Shown here in pieces: positions 10,066 through 21,961 of a stretch of DNA of 64,000 nucleotides (positions within the stretch are counted from its first letter, which is position 1; every line of letters starts with the position of its first letter). A program made the position numbers and the translations under genes. The stretch comes from Leifsonia sp. CL147 (GTDB lineage Bacteria > Actinomycetota > Actinomycetes > Actinomycetales > Microbacteriaceae): assembly GCF_900114565.1 (NCBI RefSeq), contig NZ_FOTM01000003.1, positions 94,674-158,673 on the forward strand. Direction: 5' to 3'. The notes beneath the pieces were generated by a model. That model saw nothing but the letters and a program-made list of their open reading frames with translations. It ran no database searches and was not told the DNA's origin.

Positions 10066-10140
10066 CCCCACCGTCGAGTCCGCAGAGACTGCACGTTTTC
10101 GAGCCGATTCTGTGCAATCTCTGCGGACTCGACGGTGGGG
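10066..10140. terminator. 29-bp-arm hairpin repeat (family C, copy 1)
   Basis: The left arm at 10066-10094 (CCCCACCGTCGAGTCCGCAG...) pairs with the right arm at 10112-10140 in 28 of 29 positions across a 17-nt loop. The only mismatch is A/C on the plus strand, which becomes a G-U pair on a minus-strand transcript. The element lies between convergent genes and is repeated at 20426-20501. Bidirectional termination is the simplest role; a protein-binding site is an alternative. Confidence 0.8.
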
Positions 10141-12244: not shown

Positions 12245-13297
12245 GTGACCATCGAGACAACGCCGCCCGTGCGCACGCTCGCGCCGGCGGCCCGCGCCGT
12301 CGACGTGCTCGGCGGCGACCTGACCGAGGGGTCGTTGCGCCGCTACCTGGGCGGCATCCCGGGGGTGGATGCGGTGGGGCTCGAGCAGCGCGCCGCCGGC
12401 CTCGGCACCCGCTCGATCAAGACGAGCAGCAAGAAGCGCGCGCTCGACACGATCATCGAGCTCATCGACCTGACGACCCTCGAGGGCGCGGACACCCCGG
12501 GCAAGGTGCGCTCCCTCGTGGCGAAGGCGCTCACCCCCGACCCGTCGGACCTGACGACGCCGCGGCCCGCGGCCGTGTGCGTGTACGGCGACATGGTGCC
12601 GTACGCGGTGGAGGCGATGGGCGCAGCCCACGCGGGTGCGATCCGGCGCACAGGAGGCGACGGGAGCGGACCCGGCGGCGGCATCAACGTCGCCGCCGTC
12701 GCGACGGCGTTCCCGAGCGGACGCGCCTCCCTCAAGGTCAAGCTGGCCGACACTGCGGACGCGGTCGCCGCCGGCGCCGACGAGATCGACATGGTCATCG
12801 ACCGCGGCGCCTTCCTCTCCGGCCGCTACGGGCTGGTCTTCGACGAGATCGTGGCGGTGAAGGAGGCGTGCCGCCGCGACGACGGCACGTACGCGCACCT
12901 CAAGGTGATCCTGGAGACCGGCGAGCTGAACACCTACGACAACGTCCGTCGCGCGTCCTGGCTCAGCATCCTGGCCGGCGGCGACTTCATCAAGACCTCG
13001 ACCGGCAAAGTGTCGCCTGCGGCCACCCTCCCGGTCACCCTGCTGATGCTGGAGGTGGTGCGCGACTGGCACCGGCTCACCGGCGAGGAGATCGGCGTCA
13101 AGCCGGCGGGCGGCATCCGCTCGTCGAAGGACGCCATCCGGTACCTCGTGACCGTCGCCGAGACGGTCGGGGAGCGCTGGCTGCAGCCGAACCTGTTCCG
13201 GTTCGGCGCCTCCAGCCTCCTCAACGACGTGCTGCTGCAGCGGCAGAAGCTGGCGACCGGGCACTACTCCGGCGCCGACTACGTGACGATCGACTGA
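12245..13297 (+). CDS. deoC: Deoxyribose-phosphate aldolase DeoC
   Basis: Class I aldolase splitting 2-deoxy-D-ribose 5-phosphate to acetaldehyde and glyceraldehyde 3-phosphate. Key segments are LIDLTTL (catalytic Asp region), AVCVYGDMV, GADEIDMVIDRGAF, LKVILETGEL and the Schiff-base site DFIKTSTGKVSPAAT. Then comes the proton-relay lysine segment EEIGVKPAGGIRS. A GGAGG lies 8 bases before the GTG at 12245, which fixes the start. At 350 residues it has an N-terminal extension relative to the roughly 220-residue E. coli type, like other actinobacterial long forms. It is followed after 13 bp by an aldehyde dehydrogenase that could oxidise the acetaldehyde product. Confidence 0.95.
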   Translation: MTIETTPPVRTLAPAARAVDVLGGDLTEGSLRRYLGGIPGVDAVGLEQRAAGLGTRSIKTSSKKRALDTIIELIDLTTLEGADTPGKVRSLVAKALTPDPSDLTTPRPAAVCVYGDMVPYAVEAMGAAHAGAIRRTGGDGSGPGGGINVAAVATAFPSGRASLKVKLADTADAVAAGADEIDMVIDRGAFLSGRYGLVFDEIVAVKEACRRDDGTYAHLKVILETGELNTYDNVRRASWLSILAGGDFIKTSTGKVSPAATLPVTLLMLEVVRDWHRLTGEEIGVKPAGGIRSSKDAIRYLVTVAETVGERWLQPNLFRFGASSLLNDVLLQRQKLATGHYSGADYVTID

Positions 13298-14807: not shown

Positions 14808-15664
14808 CCCGCCTGGCCGTACCGAAGACCTACAAGCTCTACATCGGCGGCGCGTTCCCGCGCAGCGAGTCCGGCCGCACGTACGAGGTGGTGACCGCGA
14901 AGGGCGCGTTCCTGGCCAACGCGGCCAAAGCCTCCCGCAAGGACGCCCGGGATGCGGTGGTCGCCGCCCGCGGCGCCGTCTCCGGCTGGTCGGGCGCGAC
15001 GGCCTACAACCGGGGCCAGGTGCTCTACCGCATCGCCGAGCTGATGGAAGGCCGCCGGGCGCAGTTCGTCGACGAGATCCAGAAGGCCGAGGGCGCCTCG
15101 GCGTCCGCCGCCGCTGCGCAGGTCGACGAGGCGATCGACCGGTGGGTCTGGTACGCGGGATGGGCGGACAAGTTCGCCCAGGTCGCGGGCAACGCCAACC
15201 CGGTCGCCGGCCCGTACTTCAACATCTCGGTGCCGGAGCCGACCGGTGTCGTCGCGATCATCGCGCCGCAGGACTCCGGCCTGCTCGGGTTCGTCAGTGC
15301 GATCGCACCGGCGCTCGTGGCCGGGAACACCGTCGTGGTCATCGCCAGCGAGCGCTTCCCGCTCTCGGCCATCAGCCTGAGCGAGGTGCTCGCGACGAGC
15401 GATGTGCCGGGCGGCGTCGTCAACATCCTCACCGGCTCGCCGGCCGAGATCGCGCCCTGGCTGGCCTCGCACGCCGACGTCAACGCGCTGGACCTGGTCG
15501 GCGCGGGCGACCTCGACTGGGTGGACCTGCAGATCGCGGCAGCCGACACGCTGAAGCGCGTGCTCCCGCCCGAGAACGGTGCCGATGCAGCCGCTCCGTC
15601 GCTCGACCGGATCGCGTTCTTCACCGAGACGAAGACCGTCTGGCACACCAAGTCGTTGCTGTAG
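14804..15664 (+). CDS. Half-length aldehyde dehydrogenase paralogue lacking the catalytic domain
   Basis: A 286-residue relative of the preceding enzyme; both share a YAGWADKF/YAGWADKL segment and the YKLYIGGAFPRSESG-type opening. The usual PWNFPL is changed to PQDSGL. The glycine motif is replaced by LDLVGAGDLD, and no LELGGK glutamate or GQxC cysteine follows. The chain ends with an unrelated tail (LDRIAFFTETKTVWHTKSLL). It therefore has most of the NAD-binding domain but no nucleophile. It overlaps the upstream gene by ATGA and is open throughout, so it is a maintained gene rather than a fresh pseudogene. A subunit or scaffold for the full enzyme is one possibility. Confidence 0.8.
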   Translation: MTRLAVPKTYKLYIGGAFPRSESGRTYEVVTAKGAFLANAAKASRKDARDAVVAARGAVSGWSGATAYNRGQVLYRIAELMEGRRAQFVDEIQKAEGASASAAAAQVDEAIDRWVWYAGWADKFAQVAGNANPVAGPYFNISVPEPTGVVAIIAPQDSGLLGFVSAIAPALVAGNTVVVIASERFPLSAISLSEVLATSDVPGGVVNILTGSPAEIAPWLASHADVNALDLVGAGDLDWVDLQIAAADTLKRVLPPENGADAAAPSLDRIAFFTETKTVWHTKSLL

Positions 15665-15754
15665 GACGGCTGTGGGGGCGTCCCGTTTCCGCGCCCGTTC
15701 CTTCCTCTGTCCGCAGTAGTGGGGGAGGATGGGGTACGACGAGGGGAGCGCGGG

Positions 15755-16366
15755 ATGCCGGAGGACTGGAGACCGGAGCAGGGGTGGAGTCCGCAGCGCG
15801 GCGAGCTGGCCCTCGTCGGGGACAGCCTGACCCAGGGCGGCGACTGGGGTGCGCTCCTCCCCGGAGAGGTCGTCCGCAACTTCGGGGCGGCGGGGGACAC
15901 CACCGACGACGTGCTCGCCCGCCTCGACGATGTGATCGACGCCCGCCCGGCGACCATCGCCCTGCTGATCGGCACCAACGACCTCGCCTGGCGCCGATCG
16001 GTGGAGCACGTCGTCCGCAACATCGAGACCATGCTCGTGACCCTGCGGAAGGACCTGCCGGAGACGCGCATCCTCGTGCAGTCCGTGATGCCGCGCGGGC
16101 ACGAGTTCGCCGACCAGATCCGCGACATCAACCGCCACTTGTGGCAATTCGCGCCGACCGTGCACGCCGGCTGGCTCGACCTCTGGCCCGCGATGGCGCT
16201 GGAGGACGGCGAGCTCAACCCCGCCTACACGGAGGACCGCCTCCACCTGAACCCCGAGGGCTACCGCGTCTGGGCGGCCGAGCTCGCCCCCGCACTCGAG
16301 CGCCTCCGTGATCTCCCCCCGAACAGCCGCGCCATCACCCTCCCCGACCTCGGCGGCGCCGCCTGA
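15755..16366 (+). CDS. SGNH/GDSL-type hydrolase
   Basis: A 203-residue esterase-fold protein. Block I is ELALVGDSLTQGGDW with the nucleophile serine (about 16-30), block II the glycine in NFGAAGDT, block III LIGTNDLAW, and block V DRLHLNPEGYRVW with the Asp-His pair. There is no signal peptide, so it is probably cytoplasmic. The ATG at 15755 was preferred over a GTG at 15719 because of the GAGGGGAG sequence upstream and because family members begin close to block I. The substrate is unknown. It is the last gene of normal composition before the lower-GC operon. Confidence 0.85.
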   Translation: MPEDWRPEQGWSPQRGELALVGDSLTQGGDWGALLPGEVVRNFGAAGDTTDDVLARLDDVIDARPATIALLIGTNDLAWRRSVEHVVRNIETMLVTLRKDLPETRILVQSVMPRGHEFADQIRDINRHLWQFAPTVHAGWLDLWPAMALEDGELNPAYTEDRLHLNPEGYRVWAAELAPALERLRDLPPNSRAITLPDLGGAA

Positions 16367-16419
16367 CCCGCAGACCGACGACGACTGCTGGCTTTCAGGA
16401 GTTTCGGTCGGTGGCGTAG

Positions 16420-16491
16420 CGAGTCGCGTAAACATTGCATCAATTGTCAGAATTCGCGTCATGATGTGGGGCGCTCGTTCGTCCACAGGGT
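16420..16491 (+). promoter_or_regulatory. AT-rich pocket upstream of the ThDP/anthranilate operon
   Basis: The base composition drops sharply around 16425-16465. TTGCAT (16435-16440) and CATGAT (16460-16465) could be a weak sigma-70-like pair with a 19-bp spacer, and CAATTG lies between them. This is the only AT-rich pocket upstream of the three-gene operon, so its promoter is probably here, but the exact boxes are uncertain. Confidence 0.3.
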
Positions 16492-18210
16492 ATGGCTACT
16501 GCTGAAGGACGAGCTCCGCTTGCTCCCGAGATGACCGTCCTCGATCATGTGTTCGCGCGACTGGTCGAACTCGGCGTTGACCACATCTTCGGAGTCCCCG
16601 GCGACTTCTCGCTTGCAATCATGGACAGGCTCGAGTCCACCTCGACCGTTGACTGGGTCGGTACGAGCGGAGAACTGGGTGCTGCGTACGCCGCAGACGG
16701 ATATGCGCGAAATCGGGGCTATGGCGCGCTTCTGACGGCCTTCGGAGTCGGTGAGCTGTCCGCCGCGACGGGCGTCGCCGGTGCAACAGCTGAGGATGTA
16801 GCGGTGCTGCACATCGTCGTCGGTCCCGCGACGCGCGCGGTAAACGCTCGCAGCCCGTTGCATCACACCTTTCACGACGGCGACTTCGACCGATTCCGGC
16901 GTGCTGCGGCCAATCTCACCGAGACAAACTTCTCGGTGGGCTTGGATGCGCCAACGGCGACAATCGACAGGGCTTTTGTTGCCCTGCGTTCGACGAAGCG
17001 ACCCGTTTATCTGTTGCTTCCTCAGGACGTTGCAGAGATTGCCGCCGCTACACCGGCGCCACTATCACTCCCTCGCGTCGCACCAACGGCTATCAAGAAT
17101 GCCAGCGACCTCCTCTCGCGCTTCTTCACAGAGGTCCCAGATGCTGTTGCCGTTCTCGGGCATCTCATCTGGCGGCGCGAGTGCGGTGATGTCGGCACCG
17201 CGCTGGCGCGCCGGGGGGCGCGCATAGCAGAACTGCCGAACGCGCTCGGATCAGCTCCTCGGTCGGAACCTACCTACGTGGGCGTCTATAACGGGAAGCT
17301 CTCGAGCCCACCAGTGCGAGATGAGGTCGAGGGCTCCCACGGGCGAGTCTTGATCGGCTGCGTCCTCTCGGACACGACGACGGGCGGACTGAGTCATCGG
17401 TTCGAAGAAGAGTCGACCTTGGCGGTCGGCCGGGATGCGATCGTCTGGCGCGACCAACGCGTCGATCTTCCTTTCGAATCCGCGTGTCGGCTTCTGTTGG
17501 AGTACTGGCCGCCGAGGAACGAGCGATTCGAGAGCGCGGCTCCTGGGCCGTCTCGGCGAGCTCCTGTCGAGGGCGACGAGAGCGTGATATCTCTCAGAGC
17601 GGTGTGGGCCGCGCTCTTGCCGCGCCTTTCTCCCGGCACGCGGCTCTTCGTTGACACGGGGAGCAGCTTCTACGGGCTGCTTGATTCCCGAATACCAGAG
17701 GGCATACGGGTAGAGAGCGCGACGCTGTGGGCGGCTATCGGATGGTCGCTCCCAGCAGGTATCGGTTCCGCGATTGCCGCCCGCTCCGAGCATGTCGTGG
17801 TGGTCATCGGCGACGGAGCCTTTCAGCAGGTGGCATCGGAACTGGCTCTGGTGTGCACGATGGGGCTTACGCCTGTGATCGTCATCATCGACAACGGCGG
17901 GTACACGGTGGAGCGCGCTATTCGCGGCGAGCACGCGCGTTATAACGATGTCCCGGCCTGGGATTATGTCGCGTTCAGTCGTGCGCTCGGGCTCGGGAAC
18001 TCGGTGGCGTCGCTGGCGCACGTCACAACACCGGAGGATCTCGAGCGGGCTGTACGAACGCTGTCTGACGACACGCGCGCACACGTTGTCGTTGTGCAAA
18101 CGCATCCGCTGGACGTCAGCGGGACGCTCGCCCAGATGTCCACTGTCTTGCGTGCGAAAGCAGGGCTCGCCTCTCTCAGCGACACTCTGGTGAGCACGAC
18201 CAATGCGTAG
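16492..18210 (+). CDS. ThDP-dependent 2-oxo acid decarboxylase (indolepyruvate/pyruvate decarboxylase-like)
   Basis: Decarboxylates a 2-oxo acid to an aldehyde, or ligates aldehydes. The full catalytic set of the PDC/IPDC family is visible: Asp in FGVPGDFSL (about 33-41), the ThDP-activating Glu in TSGELGAAYAADGYAR, and the His-His dyad in SPLHHTFHDGDF (about 121-132). The cofactor motif GDGAFQ ends about 25 residues later in IDNGGYTVE with its catalytic Glu. Length is 572 residues. It is the first gene of a coupled operon with anthranilate-synthase-like subunits and overlaps the next ATG by 8 bp. GC content is visibly lower than its neighbours. The substrate could be indolepyruvate, phenylpyruvate or an amino-derivative; the sequence does not decide. 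Confidence 0.85.
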   Translation: MATAEGRAPLAPEMTVLDHVFARLVELGVDHIFGVPGDFSLAIMDRLESTSTVDWVGTSGELGAAYAADGYARNRGYGALLTAFGVGELSAATGVAGATAEDVAVLHIVVGPATRAVNARSPLHHTFHDGDFDRFRRAAANLTETNFSVGLDAPTATIDRAFVALRSTKRPVYLLLPQDVAEIAAATPAPLSLPRVAPTAIKNASDLLSRFFTEVPDAVAVLGHLIWRRECGDVGTALARRGARIAELPNALGSAPRSEPTYVGVYNGKLSSPPVRDEVEGSHGRVLIGCVLSDTTTGGLSHRFEEESTLAVGRDAIVWRDQRVDLPFESACRLLLEYWPPRNERFESAAPGPSRRAPVEGDESVISLRAVWAALLPRLSPGTRLFVDTGSSFYGLLDSRIPEGIRVESATLWAAIGWSLPAGIGSAIAARSEHVVVVIGDGAFQQVASELALVCTMGLTPVIVIIDNGGYTVERAIRGEHARYNDVPAWDYVAFSRALGLGNSVASLAHVTTPEDLERAVRTLSDDTRAHVVVVQTHPLDVSGTLAQMSTVLRAKAGLASLSDTLVSTTNA

Positions 18211-19678
18211 CCGCGGTTTCGATCTGAACATTGACCGTCGCCTGATCCGAGCTCCAGACATATTGGACGCTGCCGACGCACTGGTGAATCGACTGGGAGC
18301 GGACTCGGTGGTTGTGCTGGAGTCGGCGTCAGGTCCTCTGCGCGATGCTCGCCACTCGATGGTGGCCATAACAGGCCTTCTCGACGTGGCCGTCTACAGC
18401 CACCGGGTTGAGATCAGTGGTCTCCCGCGCGTCACTCGTGAGGCCGAATCGGTCCTCCTTCGGTCCGGCGTGCTGGTTCGGGATGACGCGGGCCTGGCGC
18501 TACGGCAGCCCGGCGCGCTATGGGAGCTCACCGACGTCCTTGAGACCCTTTTCGCCGTCGATGACGAGTCGATCGGCAGCGACTTCGGTGGCGGGTTCTT
18601 CGCCTGCTTCGGCTACGACACAGCTCAGTACGTTGAGGAGCTACCCCGCCTGATCCCTGCGGCCGACTCGGCACCACCGGATGCCTTCTTTTCCCTTGTC
18701 CATGCCCTCATTCGAACCGAACCCGCATCGACTGAGGCTGAGTTGATGATCGCCCGGTGCGAACTCTGGCCGGACATCGACGAAACCGCTCTGCACAGGG
18801 ATCTGAGCATGAGGAACCCTCGCCGAGGTACGCACGTACCTCGCCCACGTTCCGTCCGCTTTGAAGTCACGCCTGAGGAGTATGCCGGTCGGGTTGAGGT
18901 AGCGCTCGACCACATCGCCGACGGCGATATCTACCAGATACAGCTCGGTCATCAGATTGAGATAGAGACGTCAGTGCTTCCGTTCGATGTGTACCGCCGG
19001 CTCCGGGAACGCAACCCTTCGCCGTACATGAGCTTCGCGAAGATCGCAGGTACGTCCTTGGTGGGTGCGAGCCCTGAACTGTTCGTACGTCTCGAGAGGG
19101 GCGTCGTCACGATGCGCCCCATCGCCGGCACTGCTCCGCGAAGCGGCGATGAAGCGAGAGACCTCGACGCGCGTGACGCCTTGCTCGCTGACGAGAAAGA
19201 GAGGGCAGAACACCTCATGCTGGTGGATCTGTGCCGCAACGACTTCGGCCGAGTCTGCAGGCCCGCATCGATCAGTGTCCACGAGCTCATGGTCGTCGAA
19301 GAGTATTCACACGTCATGCACTTGGTATCGGATGTGGCGGGCGCAGCACGTGAAAGCGTCGGAGCCATGGAATTGGTTCGCGCAACGTTTCCCGCCGGAA
19401 CGATGACGGGTGCGCCCAAGATTCGAGCCATGGAGTTGATCGAGACTTTGGAAAGCTCCCGCCGAGGACTCTATGCGGGGGCGCACGGTCTCATCGGATT
19501 CGGAGGATGGTGCGTGCTCGGACTCGGCATTCGGATGACGACACACCACGAGGGGAAGTACACCGTCCGCGCGTCCGCAGGGGTCGTCGCGGACTCGTCC
19601 GCCGACGGCGAGTGGAACGAGACGCTGTCGAAAATGGCGGCTGCTTTCTGGGCCGTCTCGAACGAGGAGTTGGTATGA
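18203..19678 (+). CDS. Anthranilate synthase component I-like chorismate-binding enzyme
   Basis: Chorismate-utilising (TrpE/PabB) family, 491 residues. The N-terminal half has VVLESASGPLRDARHSMVA, matching the LLES...RYS region of TrpE. The catalytic half has ALDHIADGDIYQIQLG, GASPELFVRLE, PIAGTAPRSG, and LMLVDLCRNDFGRV, then FPAGTMTGAPKIRAMELI. The alanine in PIAGT marks the anthranilate/ADIC group; PabB enzymes that form a covalent intermediate have lysine there. It is translationally coupled to a ThDP decarboxylase upstream and a glutaminase subunit downstream (ATGA). Because no other trp gene is near, a dedicated role in a secondary or signalling pathway is more likely than tryptophan supply; this is inference. 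Confidence 0.85.
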   Translation: MRSRGFDLNIDRRLIRAPDILDAADALVNRLGADSVVVLESASGPLRDARHSMVAITGLLDVAVYSHRVEISGLPRVTREAESVLLRSGVLVRDDAGLALRQPGALWELTDVLETLFAVDDESIGSDFGGGFFACFGYDTAQYVEELPRLIPAADSAPPDAFFSLVHALIRTEPASTEAELMIARCELWPDIDETALHRDLSMRNPRRGTHVPRPRSVRFEVTPEEYAGRVEVALDHIADGDIYQIQLGHQIEIETSVLPFDVYRRLRERNPSPYMSFAKIAGTSLVGASPELFVRLERGVVTMRPIAGTAPRSGDEARDLDARDALLADEKERAEHLMLVDLCRNDFGRVCRPASISVHELMVVEEYSHVMHLVSDVAGAARESVGAMELVRATFPAGTMTGAPKIRAMELIETLESSRRGLYAGAHGLIGFGGWCVLGLGIRMTTHHEGKYTVRASAGVVADSSADGEWNETLSKMAAAFWAVSNEELV

Positions 19679-20259
19679 AGGTCGCGGTCATCGACGCATT
19701 CGACAGTTTCGTGTGGATCATCAAGCAGTACCTCGACGAAGCAGGCGCCGAGACGACCATGCTCCGAAGCCACGCGGAGAATCCCGCCCGACTCGCTGAA
19801 CTCGAGCCTGACTGCATCGTCCTGGGGCCGGGGCCCGGCACGCCCGCTGCGTCCGGTCACATCGAGATCCTGGAGGCCCATTCCCAGCACATCCCGGTGC
19901 TCGGGATCTGCCTGGGCCACCAGGCGATTGCCGAATTCTTCGGCGCAACAGTCCGGCCGGCAGAACATCTGATGCATGGCAAGACGAGTCTCGTGGACCA
20001 CGACGGCCACGGCGTCTTCCGGGGCTTACCGCGACCAGCGACTGTCACCCGATATCACTCGCTGGTCGTAGACGAGGCGACCATTCCAGAGTGCTTGGTT
20101 GTCACCGCACGCTCCTCAGACGACAACTACGTGATGGGACTGCGCCACAAGGATCGGCGGATCGAGGCCGTGCAGTTTCACCCGGAAAGTATCGGTACTC
20201 AGGTCGGACATCGATACTTTGAAAACTATCTGAAGAGTCTCGTAGTAGTCGATGGGTGA
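19675..20259 (+). CDS. Class I glutamine amidotransferase, TrpG/PabA-like
   Basis: Glutaminase subunit (194 residues) that delivers ammonia to the chorismate-binding enzyme encoded just upstream. The nucleophile is in LGICLGHQAI (Cys about 79), and the His-Glu pair in VQFHPESIG (about 168-176). The oxyanion region LGPGPGTPAASG is present. The ATG at 19675 overlaps the preceding stop. Operon order synthase then glutaminase supports a stoichiometric complex. Composition matches the two upstream genes rather than the chromosome average. Confidence 0.9.
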   Translation: MKVAVIDAFDSFVWIIKQYLDEAGAETTMLRSHAENPARLAELEPDCIVLGPGPGTPAASGHIEILEAHSQHIPVLGICLGHQAIAEFFGATVRPAEHLMHGKTSLVDHDGHGVFRGLPRPATVTRYHSLVVDEATIPECLVVTARSSDDNYVMGLRHKDRRIEAVQFHPESIGTQVGHRYFENYLKSLVVVDG

Positions 20260-20425
20260 GCCGGCGCGGATCGAGGACCTTCGGTTTGCGATAGTGCAGG
20301 GATCGTCCCGGCCCAACGGCCGAATTCGCGACCAGGGACAGACATGGTGTGGATGATGTTCGAACGAGCCGGAGAAGCCGAGCCGTCGGGCAACCCGCAT
20401 GGTGATTGGCGTACGTGATCTCCCG

Positions 20426-20501
20426 CCCCACCATCGAGTCCGCAAAGACTGCACGCGAAACGCCGCGCGGCCGTGCAATCTCTGCGGACTCGACGGTGGG
20501 G
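20426..20501. terminator. 29-bp-arm hairpin repeat (family C, copy 2)
   Basis: The left arm at 20426-20454 pairs with the right arm at 20473-20501 in 26 of 29 positions around an 18-nt loop. All three mismatches are A/C on the plus strand, hence G-U on a minus-strand transcript. The right arm is identical to that of copy 1 at 10112-10140. It again lies between two convergent genes. Confidence 0.8.
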
Positions 20502-20528
20502 GGTGGGGGTGGGGGTGGGGTGGGGGCG
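20502..20528. repeat. G-run tract after the hairpin
   Basis: Runs of four to six G separated by single T fill the space up to the macrodomain gene's stop codon. It is a G-quadruplex candidate on the plus strand and an uninterrupted C-rich tract on the minus-strand transcript. Confidence 0.6.
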
Positions 20529-21059
20529 TCAGGCGGCGGCCGCGGTGCGGAAGGCGTCGAAGGCCGCGTCCGAGAACAGGACGAAGCGCACGTGCTCGAC
20601 CGATCCGACCCCGGAGGAGAGCACGGCACGCACGGTGCTGATCGCGATCCGCGCGGCGTCGTCCATCGGCCAGCCGTAGATCCCGGCGGAGATCGCCGGG
20701 AAGGCGACCGTCCGGGCGCCCAGCTCCCGGGCGACCCGCAGCGAGGACCGATACGCGTTCTGCAGCAGCGGAGTGCGGTCCTCGTGCGCCGACCACACCG
20801 GTCCGACCGTGTGGATGACCCAACTCGCTGCGAGGTCGCCCGCCGTGGTGGCCACCGCTTGGCCCGTGGGCAACCCGTCCGGCAGCGTGGTGGCACGCAG
20901 CTGCCTGGTCGCGGCGAGGATGGCCGGCCCGCCTCGCCGGTGGATGGCGCCGTCCACCCCTCCACCGCCCAGCAGCGAGCTGTTGGCGGCGTTGACGATC
21001 GCATCCACGGTCTCGTCGGTGATGTCTCCGCGGACGATGCGGATGAGCTCCTCAGCCAT
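20529..21059 (-). CDS. Macrodomain ADP-ribose hydrolase (O-acetyl-ADP-ribose deacetylase type)
   Basis: A 176-residue single macrodomain protein, with IVRGDITDETVDAIVNAANSS matching the classical GDIT...IVNAAN ADP-ribose-binding strand. GGGGVDGAIHRRGG holds the catalytic-loop residues, and VIHTVGPVW and FPAISAGIYGWP form the phosphate loop. The layout matches bacterial YmdB/MacroD-like enzymes that hydrolyse O-acetyl-ADP-ribose or mono-ADP-ribose from proteins. It lies 10 bp downstream of the CsoR-like gene in the same direction and is probably co-transcribed with it. Confidence 0.92.
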   Translation of the reverse strand: MAEELIRIVRGDITDETVDAIVNAANSSLLGGGGVDGAIHRRGGPAILAATRQLRATTLPDGLPTGQAVATTAGDLAASWVIHTVGPVWSAHEDRTPLLQNAYRSSLRVARELGARTVAFPAISAGIYGWPMDDAARIAISTVRAVLSSGVGSVEHVRFVLFSDAAFDAFRTAAAA

Positions 21060-21069
21060 GGTCGCCGGG

Positions 21070-21348
21070 TCAGCCGCGGTTGTTGGAGAGCTCGTAGACC
21101 TTGAGCAGTTCGAGGATGGCGTCGTCGCGTGCGCTTCCGCCTTCCTCGAACATCTCCGACACGTGCGTGCGGAGGTGGTTCTCGACCAGCAGCTTGTTGA
21201 GCGAGCCGAGCGACTTCTGGATGGCGAGGGACTGCGTGATGATGTCCACGCAGTAGTCCTCGTTCTCGATCATCTTCTCCAGGCCCCGGAGCTGGCCCTC
21301 GAGGATGCGCGTGCGGTGCAGTGCACGCTTCTTGATGTCTGCGATCAC
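21070..21348 (-). CDS. CsoR/RcnR-family metal-sensing repressor
   Basis: A DUF156 all-helical regulator with the core RILEGQLRGLEKMIENEDYC and then ENHLRTHV. The cysteine of EDYC and both histidines of NHLRTH fall at the C-H-(C/H) ligand positions, giving x-Cys-His-His instead of the Cys-His-Cys of copper sensors. A Ni/Co- or aldehyde-type effector is therefore as likely as copper. The GTG at 21348 gives 92 residues, normal for the family. A longer in-frame start at 21432 would make the upstream G/C-box palindromes coding and is less likely. The rbsD-like gene diverges from it. Confidence 0.8.
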   Translation of the reverse strand: MIADIKKRALHRTRILEGQLRGLEKMIENEDYCVDIITQSLAIQKSLGSLNKLLVENHLRTHVSEMFEEGGSARDDAILELLKVYELSNNRG

Positions 21349-21376
21349 CCCCTCAGGATAATGCCGGAGCCGCCCA

Positions 21377-21456
21377 TACCCGGAGGGGGTAAATGGCGTC
21401 GCCCCGGGGGTCCAAGCCGACGAGGAGTTCACCCGGGCTATCCCCTCAATGGGGGG
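21377..21456. promoter_or_regulatory. G/C-box inverted repeats typical of CsoR-family operators
   Basis: TACCCGGAGGGGGTA at 21377-21391 and TATCCCCTCAATGGGGGG at 21439-21456 are C-run/G-run inverted repeats of the kind bound by DUF156 regulators. A further CCTCC-AG-GGAGG lies at about 21484-21495. They fill the divergent intergenic region between the CsoR-like gene and the RbsD-like gene, suggesting autoregulation plus control of the neighbour. Confidence 0.55.
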
Positions 21457-21532
21457 TGTGGGTGGACATACCGATGGGTCTATCCTCCAGGGAGGGGTTG
21501 AGAAATATTCGTTTAACAGGAAAGGCCCGACT

Positions 21533-21961
21533 TTGCTGAAGAACCTCAGCCCGCTGCTGTCCGGTGCGCTCTTGAGCGCGCTCGACGCGATGCACGATGG
21601 CCAAACGCTTACCCTCGTCGGCAGCGGCTACCCGGAAGATCAGATCACCGCCCCCGTCGTCCACTTGGGCGACGACGTCACGACAGAGGCCGCCGCCGAA
21701 GCGATCCTCTCCGTGTTCCCGCTCGACCAGCAGGATGCCTCGCCGATCGTGTTCCTCGATCTCGCCGAAGAGCCCTACGACGTCCCCGACGTCGCGTTCG
21801 CGGTGAACGGGATCGCGTCCGACGCCGAACTGCGCCGAGTACCCATGACCCGCCTCGAGCTCGACCCGTTCCTCGAGCTCGCCCGAACCGCCGCCGTCAC
21901 GGTACGTGTCGGCTCCGACGCACCGCCCTGCGCGTTCCTGTTCCGTCGTGGCACGCTGTAA
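21533..21961 (+). CDS. RbsD/FucU-like sugar mutarotase family protein
   Basis: A 142-residue protein opening with LLKNLSPLLSGALLSALDAM, then DGQTLTLVGSGYP, the position where RbsD/FucU proteins have the H/D-containing loop of the pyranase active site. It ends VRVGSDAPPCAFLFRRGTL, similar to RbsD C-termini. A TTG start at 21533 is preferred because AGGAAAGG lies 8 bp upstream; upstream in-frame codons run through operator-like DNA. The family interconverts ring forms of ribose or fucose, but no sugar transporter is adjacent. Its divergence from a CsoR-like regulator is unusual. Confidence 0.75.
   Translation: MLKNLSPLLSGALLSALDAMHDGQTLTLVGSGYPEDQITAPVVHLGDDVTTEAAAEAILSVFPLDQQDASPIVFLDLAEEPYDVPDVAFAVNGIASDAELRRVPMTRLELDPFLELARTAAVTVRVGSDAPPCAFLFRRGTL

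Follow-up and report, generated by a model that had tools for sequence, protein, structure and literature searches.

What could be made by an operon that couples a thiamine diphosphate (ThDP)-dependent 2-oxo-acid decarboxylase to a pair of proteins resembling the two subunits of anthranilate synthase? The question is raised by a stretch of 64,000 nucleotides from Leifsonia sp. CL147 (contig NZ_FOTM01000003.1, positions 94,674 to 158,673), referred to throughout as the window, in which three genes on the plus strand overlap head to tail with all three reading frames intact (window positions 16492-20259). An earlier sequence-only reading of this DNA had described three coupled genes at this place, and the overlaps, the coordinates and the families were all confirmed. 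The genes are as follows.

16492..18210, plus strand: ThDP-dependent 2-oxo-acid decarboxylase of the pyruvate, indolepyruvate and keto-acid decarboxylase (PDC/IPDC/KDC) family, 572 amino acids, assigned by Pfam, NCBIfam and Protein Data Bank (PDB) matches and by kept residues
18203..19678, plus strand: SgcD-subfamily chorismate-amination subunit (TrpE homologue), 491 amino acids, with an ATG that overlaps the stop codon of the decarboxylase gene
19675..20259, plus strand: glutamine amidotransferase subunit (TrpG homologue), 194 amino acids, with a start that overlaps the stop codon of the TrpE-like gene

The answer preferred here, with a probability of roughly 0.6, is that the trio is an acquired specialised-metabolism operon that would convert chorismate to 2-amino-2-deoxyisochorismate (ADIC), or to anthranilate, alongside a 2-oxo-acid decarboxylase; the confidences attached to this reading and to its rivals overlap and do not sum to 1. 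The gene content is seen directly, and from it we infer all catalysis. In order of decreasing confidence, the glutaminase would feed ammonia to the TrpE-like subunit, where chorismate would be aminated at C2; the TrpE-like enzyme would, like SgcD, stop at ADIC without expelling pyruvate (odds of about 2 to 1); the decarboxylase would turn an aromatic or branched 2-oxo acid into an aldehyde; and the two products would be combined into a single compound, either by host enzymes encoded elsewhere or spontaneously. This last joining is a guess taken from the structure of the operon alone.

The TrpE-like enzyme and its probable product

The pair had been called an anthranilate synthase, a name that comparison with curated families calls into question. 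The TrpE-like protein carries the Pfam domains Anth_synt_I_N and Chorismate_bind, but it misses the TrpE cut-offs, with 363.2 of 517.7 bits against TIGR00564 and 308 of 693 against PRK13571, and it lies under the curated cut-off in every one of the 25 NCBIfam families listed. Four chorismate-binding proteins are encoded in the genome, that of the trio included. One is a canonical TrpE which passes both models (PRK13571, 769.4 bits with a cut-off of 693; TIGR00564, 527 bits) and whose gene shares a stretch with trpC, trpB and trpA; the second scores highest as PabB (327.2 bits, cut-off 328.4), and the third is an isochorismate synthase. Because these genes are present, the enzyme of the trio is an extra one. 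The separate trpE with trpC, trpB and trpA elsewhere excludes it as the primary tryptophan enzyme, and the pair is not the only anthranilate synthase of the genome, a possibility that the sequence-only reading had raised. Its assignment to the amine-transfer type rather than to PabB stands: the protein contains PIAGT without the PabB lysine, which rules out a PabB identity, and the genome's own PabB-like protein contains PIKGT, the lysine of which we take to be catalytic.

In plasmid records, the best named relatives of the TrpE-like protein are SgcD of the enediyne C-1027 and its near-copies (47.4-47.8% identity), and by homology the protein is assigned to the wider SgcD subfamily. SgcD has been reported to convert chorismate to ADIC with the enolpyruvyl group kept and pyruvate not cleaved; benzoxazolinate is then formed from ADIC by SgcG together with an acyl-AMP ligase (PMC10098953). 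In a tree of 27 rows, for which the program warned of long branches in three outgroup rows and a Pseudomonas amygdali row, the window protein groups with the product of a solitary gene from G141, another genome (support 87/81, not starred), which is its nearest relative at 49-51% identity. Both fall outside the SgcD, the trpD-linked and the orphan-pair/SgcG-linked clades, with the deeper forks open. Forcing the window protein into the trpD-linked clade was rejected by the approximately unbiased (AU) test (p 2.2e-7; 0.030 when ligase-linked rows were added), and this clade was dropped as its home; the groups tested were named by neighbour genes and chosen after the tree was seen.

Residues were compared across 27 rows, selected from the sequences retrieved. 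Residue 456, which precedes ASAG, is Arg in the window protein, in G141 and in all of the SgcG-linked (7/7) and orphan-pair rows (7/7), and Gln in the trpD-linked (6/6) and ligase-linked rows (2/2) and in the genome's own TrpE; three further sequences (L141-L143) agree but are near-copies of rows included. Eighteen columns split SgcG-linked from trpD-linked rows; in the window protein, 10 of them show a residue of the SgcG set, 2 a residue of the trpD set and 6 a residue of neither. The tree and residue 456 lean towards a place with the SgcG-linked rather than the trpD-linked relatives, which is no proof of product. The groups at residue 456 are also clades and thus represent one evolutionary event, a point against the operon as proposed, and they therefore lend support, not proof, to ADIC.

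PhzE and anthranilate synthase are reported to differ in only three first-shell residues (PMC5906492), and one account of PhzE finds in the sequences no sign of the difference in outcome (PMC5958127), so prediction of the product from sequence is uncertain. The same account describes the ADIC synthase Lim6 as making mostly ADIC and little anthranilate (PMC5958127). For the window enzyme, ADIC appears more likely than anthranilate as the first product, at about 2 to 1, and the label "anthranilate" more likely wrong than right.

These data bear directly on a rival explanation, in which the pair would give the genome an additional, specialised anthranilate synthase whose product feeds the decarboxylase directly or by way of boosted tryptophan and indolepyruvate; the outcome would be a route of the indole-acetaldehyde, tryptophol or auxin type, or else anthranilate together with an aldehyde. 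The closest curated models of the two enzymes are indeed TrpE (363 bits) and IPDC (345 bits), but both cut-offs are missed, that of IPDC by far. The histidine of YSHVMHLVS, which we take to matter for pyruvate loss, is kept in the TrpE-like protein. Other members of the wider subfamily adjoin trpD, which needs anthranilate, and the two trpD-type letters (columns 200 and 436) argue in the same direction and against our preferred reading; on the other side stand the rejection of the trpD-linked clade, the different residue 456 and the lack in the trio itself of trpD, trpC, trpB, trpA or an aminotransferase gene. The absence of trp, mutase and aminotransferase genes noted earlier was borne out in the parts covered: a trpD probe from NBC_00053 had no match within the window, and no mutase or aminotransferase was seen among the neighbouring genes scanned, which are part of the genes of the window. 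Taken together, a specialised anthranilate synthase is regarded as rather unlikely.

Several relatives of the TrpE-like gene have neighbourhoods of their own. The lone gene of G141 (L089:7735-9204) has a third-position guanine-plus-cytosine (GC) fraction of 0.70 against 0.80 or more in its called neighbours, and no match to the glutaminase of the trio was found in the 19 kb around it. In four loci (L115, L116, L121, L125) an SgcD-subfamily gene is clustered with a phenylacetate-CoA-ligase-type gene and with genes that by eye resemble prephenate dehydratase and amidohydrolase, joined in L116, L121 and L125 by an MFS-like gene; these clusters possibly represent another specialised pathway. Conjugative plasmids of Pseudomonas amygdali (L100, L143) carry an SgcD-subfamily pair near genes for a phenylacetate-CoA-ligase-family enzyme and an iron-containing redox enzyme, together with a flavodoxin-family (SgcG-like) gene that is annotated in L100 and, in L143, detected by tblastn alone; they may be carrying a benzoxazolinate-like cassette on mobile DNA.

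The decarboxylase and the inserted block

The decarboxylase scores over the Pfam cut-off for TPP_enzyme_N and TPP_enzyme_C and slightly under it for TPP_enzyme_M (27.5 of 30.4 bits). In its alignment D38, E61, H124-H125, GDG440-442 (x25) N468 and E474 are kept, the roles of D38 and E474 being our assumption. The earlier claim of a full PDC/IPDC catalytic set, His-His dyad included, is thus upheld by the aligned residues. The His-His motif is described as a mark of pyruvate, indolepyruvate and phenylpyruvate decarboxylases, along with the catalytic Glu and GDG(x24-27)N motifs (PMC3534367), and this PDC/IPDC-type motif set is complete in the window enzyme. The indolepyruvate decarboxylase equivalogs are missed (TIGR03393, 345.2 of 946 bits; TIGR03394, 136.1 of 554.5 bits), and the best PDB matches are indolepyruvate, ketoisovalerate and branched-chain keto-acid decarboxylases with nearly equal scores, so that no substrate can be named. 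Relatives past the set E-values occur in 19 of 299 family, 4 of 396 phylum and 13 of 396 order genomes (own genome excluded), at an identity of at most 39%; these samples overlap, and matches were listed only past the chosen E-values. In an alignment of 45 relative rows (44 distinct, one locus being present twice as L046 and L059), at least 43 rows agree at 18 columns where the window enzyme differs; one of these columns immediately precedes the catalytic Glu. The decarboxylase therefore looks active but diverged, as judged from its residues. A contig scan, which requires exact eight-residue patterns and so is weak evidence of absence, found two relatives at 35-37%, and tblastn against plasmids matched 23 records, the best among the 20 listed at 36.7%.

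A second PDC-type decarboxylase of the genome (L059:311-2635) is 36% identical to that of the trio. It is directly followed by a gene resembling the small subunit of acetolactate synthase (ALS_ss_C, ACT_5), a neighbour seen only there among the 45 decarboxylase loci probed (L046 being the same as L059, and the flanks mostly 1.5 kb).

In the glutaminase, GATase was matched with 184 bits in Pfam and TIGR00566 with 189.7 bits (cut-off 121), and the motifs GICLGHQ and QFHPE, whose roles we presume, are readable. Its start is likely at 19675, with GAGGAG upstream; the longest open reading frame, from 19507, begins within the TrpE-like gene.

The surroundings of the trio are as follows.

15719-16366, plus strand: SGNH hydrolase gene, upstream of the trio
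16367..20425, no strand: inserted block, from directly behind the SGNH hydrolase stop codon to a palindrome; a few bases stand in its place in the relative loci L066 and L067
16367..16491, plus strand: leader of 125 bp, 57.6% GC, without a sigma-70-type promoter match or Rfam match
20426..20501, no strand: palindrome with 30-nucleotide arms and a 16-nucleotide loop, a member of a dispersed repeat family of the genome; native flank, outside the insert
20529-21059, opposite strand: macro-domain gene, downstream of the trio

The block had been called compositionally foreign, and this is confirmed both by its base composition and by the empty site in relatives, which shows its origin. The lowest-GC stretch of 3768 bases in the window begins ten bases ahead of the decarboxylase start codon, at 16482, and has 62.7% G+C against a window mean of 70.1% (standard deviation 2.2). 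Third-position GC is 0.68-0.71 in the trio compared with 0.80-0.95 in the Pfam-supported neighbours scanned, the SGNH gene being at 0.93. The two base counts given earlier were exact (33/60 at 16981-17040 and 45/60 at 12301-12360); a single 60-mer count is nonetheless little proof of foreign composition, since counts of 33/60 or lower occur in 1.7% of consecutive 60-mers across the window and in 6.5% of those within the trio.

All 28 genomes of the genus have the macro-domain gene. Of 19 short relative loci (L063-L081), 11 contain a match to the SGNH end, always at a distance of about 1.4 kb from the macro-domain gene and never with the trio in the space between; the other 8 have no such match. 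In L066 and L067 the palindrome, which in the window does not follow until 20426, stands within a few bases after the SGNH stop codon; its presence at the same place identifies it as native flank and not as part of the insert, and base-by-base comparison of the junctions gives about 4.06 kb inserted in the window. The palindrome is absent at this place in L068. The decarboxylase of the trio is absent from the 27 other genomes of the genus (best match E 6.9e-18). The trio is thus a horizontally acquired block placed between the SGNH hydrolase gene and the palindrome that follows it. Synteny at this place varies, as no SGNH match was seen in L095-L097, three macro-gene loci covered over 13 kb, which detracts somewhat from the case for an acquired operon.

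An M20-family peptidase gene lies between the palindrome and the macro-domain gene in L066 and is missing from the window. A metal-sensing repressor gene, like the macro-domain gene, lies downstream on the strand opposite to the trio. A second copy of the palindrome lies at about 10066-10140. The exact 22-base pattern of its arm has 47 matches in the genome (both arms counted), five of them directly beside the genome's own trpE (C30:89617-89936), and occurs in 5 of 27 other genomes of the genus with 1 to 13 matches each, diverged copies being missed; the element looks like a REP-type (repetitive extragenic palindromic) sequence expanded in this lineage. Rfam gave no match at E 0.5 or better over 15500-21600, and an RNA leader or riboswitch ahead of the trio was dropped as a candidate on this result. 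The promoter scan at the locus returned nothing, and terminator-like sites were found solely within genes.

Evidence for and against a joint pathway

Only three features suggest a joint function: the gene overlaps, the shared composition and the placement of all three genes in one insert. No other instance of this combination of known enzyme kinds turned up in the samples covered; the proposal of an undescribed pathway is weakened by this absence of a second trio, and several further results weigh on the same side. The suggestion that the same three-gene set might be found in other genomes was not borne out. No PDC-type gene was seen in 26 TrpE-like neighbourhoods (L089-L094, L098-L103, L115-L125, L141-L143), three of which are near-copies of others and some of which end at contig ends, and no TrpE-like gene in 30 decarboxylase loci (L027-L055, L144; one being the genome's own second copy), 27 of which carry at most 1.5 kb of flank. 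The loci L126-L140 entered the residue alignment and stood outside this neighbour check. In the sample of 299 family genomes, the same in both searches by totals and handles, the TrpE-like protein occurs in six other genomes (E 1e-80) and the decarboxylase in nineteen other genomes (E 1e-60) with no overlap, so that the genome of the window alone has both. In the literature the same trio was not recognised at the level of titles and abstract openings, which is no proof of its absence from print.

These results favour a second rival, a shared insertion without a common pathway, in which an Ehrlich-type decarboxylase travels with an unrelated orphan ADIC or anthranilate synthase pair, or the genes are the remains of a larger cluster; it is compatible with either product of the TrpE-like enzyme. 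No second trio was found, some relatives have an orphan pair, or in one case a solitary TrpE-like gene, with no decarboxylase gene next to it, and G141, source of the nearest TrpE-like relative, is not among the decarboxylase-positive genomes of the family sample. Translational overlaps, the same odd composition, one insert and intact frames argue the other way, and we hold a mere shared insertion to be unlikely, if slightly less so than the specialised anthranilate synthase.

Other results weigh on the ADIC step of the preferred operon reading. Holding the window protein in the four-row SgcD clade was also rejected, more weakly than the trpD-linked placement (p 0.039). An SgcG probe had no match in the genome, a weak negative from a search without a positive control; the same probe matches 7/7 SgcG-linked loci by tblastn and nothing in the genome's own stretches. 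The SgcG-associated ligases were unmatched in the window, in the 20 kb on either side of it and in four further stretches of the genome. Four isochorismatase-family proteins are encoded in the genome, none with a listed model indicating PhzD (the presence of a PhzD model in the library was unchecked), and these genes were rejected as PhzD stand-ins, no model pointing in that direction. No known ADIC-using gene was thus seen in the searches of the genome.

An intact benzoxazolinate cassette is excluded by the same searches, neither the SgcG-type dehydrogenase (genome) nor the acyl-AMP ligase (window and own stretches) having been found. A degraded or simplified form of the cassette would fit the wider SgcD subfamily and the nine examined relatives that adjoin an SgcG-like gene, but both other cassette genes are missing from the sequences just named and none of these nine has a PDC-type gene beside it; this explanation is considered very improbable.

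Comparison with known systems

The decarboxylase resembles the indolepyruvate, pyruvate and branched-chain keto-acid decarboxylases in family, catalytic residues and His-His dyad, and differs from them in its low identity (at most 39%) and at the 18 near-invariant columns. TrpE/TrpG-like pairs linked to trpD, found on Streptomyces plasmids and in other genomes, are members of the wider subfamily at 43-45% identity, whereas they form a separate clade with trpD nearby and with Gln in place of the Arg of the trio at 456. The SgcD/SgcG benzoxazolinate branch (C-1027, benzobactins) is closer: the TrpE-like protein is 47% identical to SgcD and has the RASAG motif in common with it, and the adjacent glutaminase is 56% identical to the one beside SgcD. 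In contrast to that branch, the trio stands without a detected SgcG-type dehydrogenase or acyl-AMP ligase and has a PDC-family decarboxylase instead, and its TrpE-like protein lies outside the four-row SgcD clade.

In outline, the obafluorin cluster of Pseudomonas is similar, with a chorismate-derived amino-aryl precursor (ObaD-F) and the ThDP decarboxylase ObaH, whose substrate is described as an arylpyruvate derived through 4-amino-chorismate (PMC5490192). However, that is a 4-amino route with a 4-aminochorismate mutase, while the enzyme of the trio is of the 2-amino type and no mutase gene adjoins it. By analogy, ADIC might undergo a Claisen rearrangement to a carboxy- or amino-carboxy-phenylpyruvate as the true substrate of the decarboxylase, an undescribed branch to an aryl-acetaldehyde that we regard as a long shot. 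Isochorismate has been reported to give 3-carboxyphenylpyruvate non-enzymatically at 100 °C, presumably via isoprephenate, and an enzyme for this rearrangement has been proposed in plants (PMC11416591). If real, such a branch would be the 2-amino counterpart of the obafluorin route and would account for the pairing of just these two activities on one piece of DNA.

If both activities serve one compound, ADIC-type amination of chorismate would be tied to a ThDP-dependent 2-oxo-acid decarboxylase, and a small route to new amino-aryl products would result; none of the genomes, plasmids or paper listings searched showed such a pairing. Even otherwise, the locus adds to the SgcD-subfamily genes outside enediyne and benzoxazolinate clusters, for which the label "anthranilate synthase" should not be trusted at face value.

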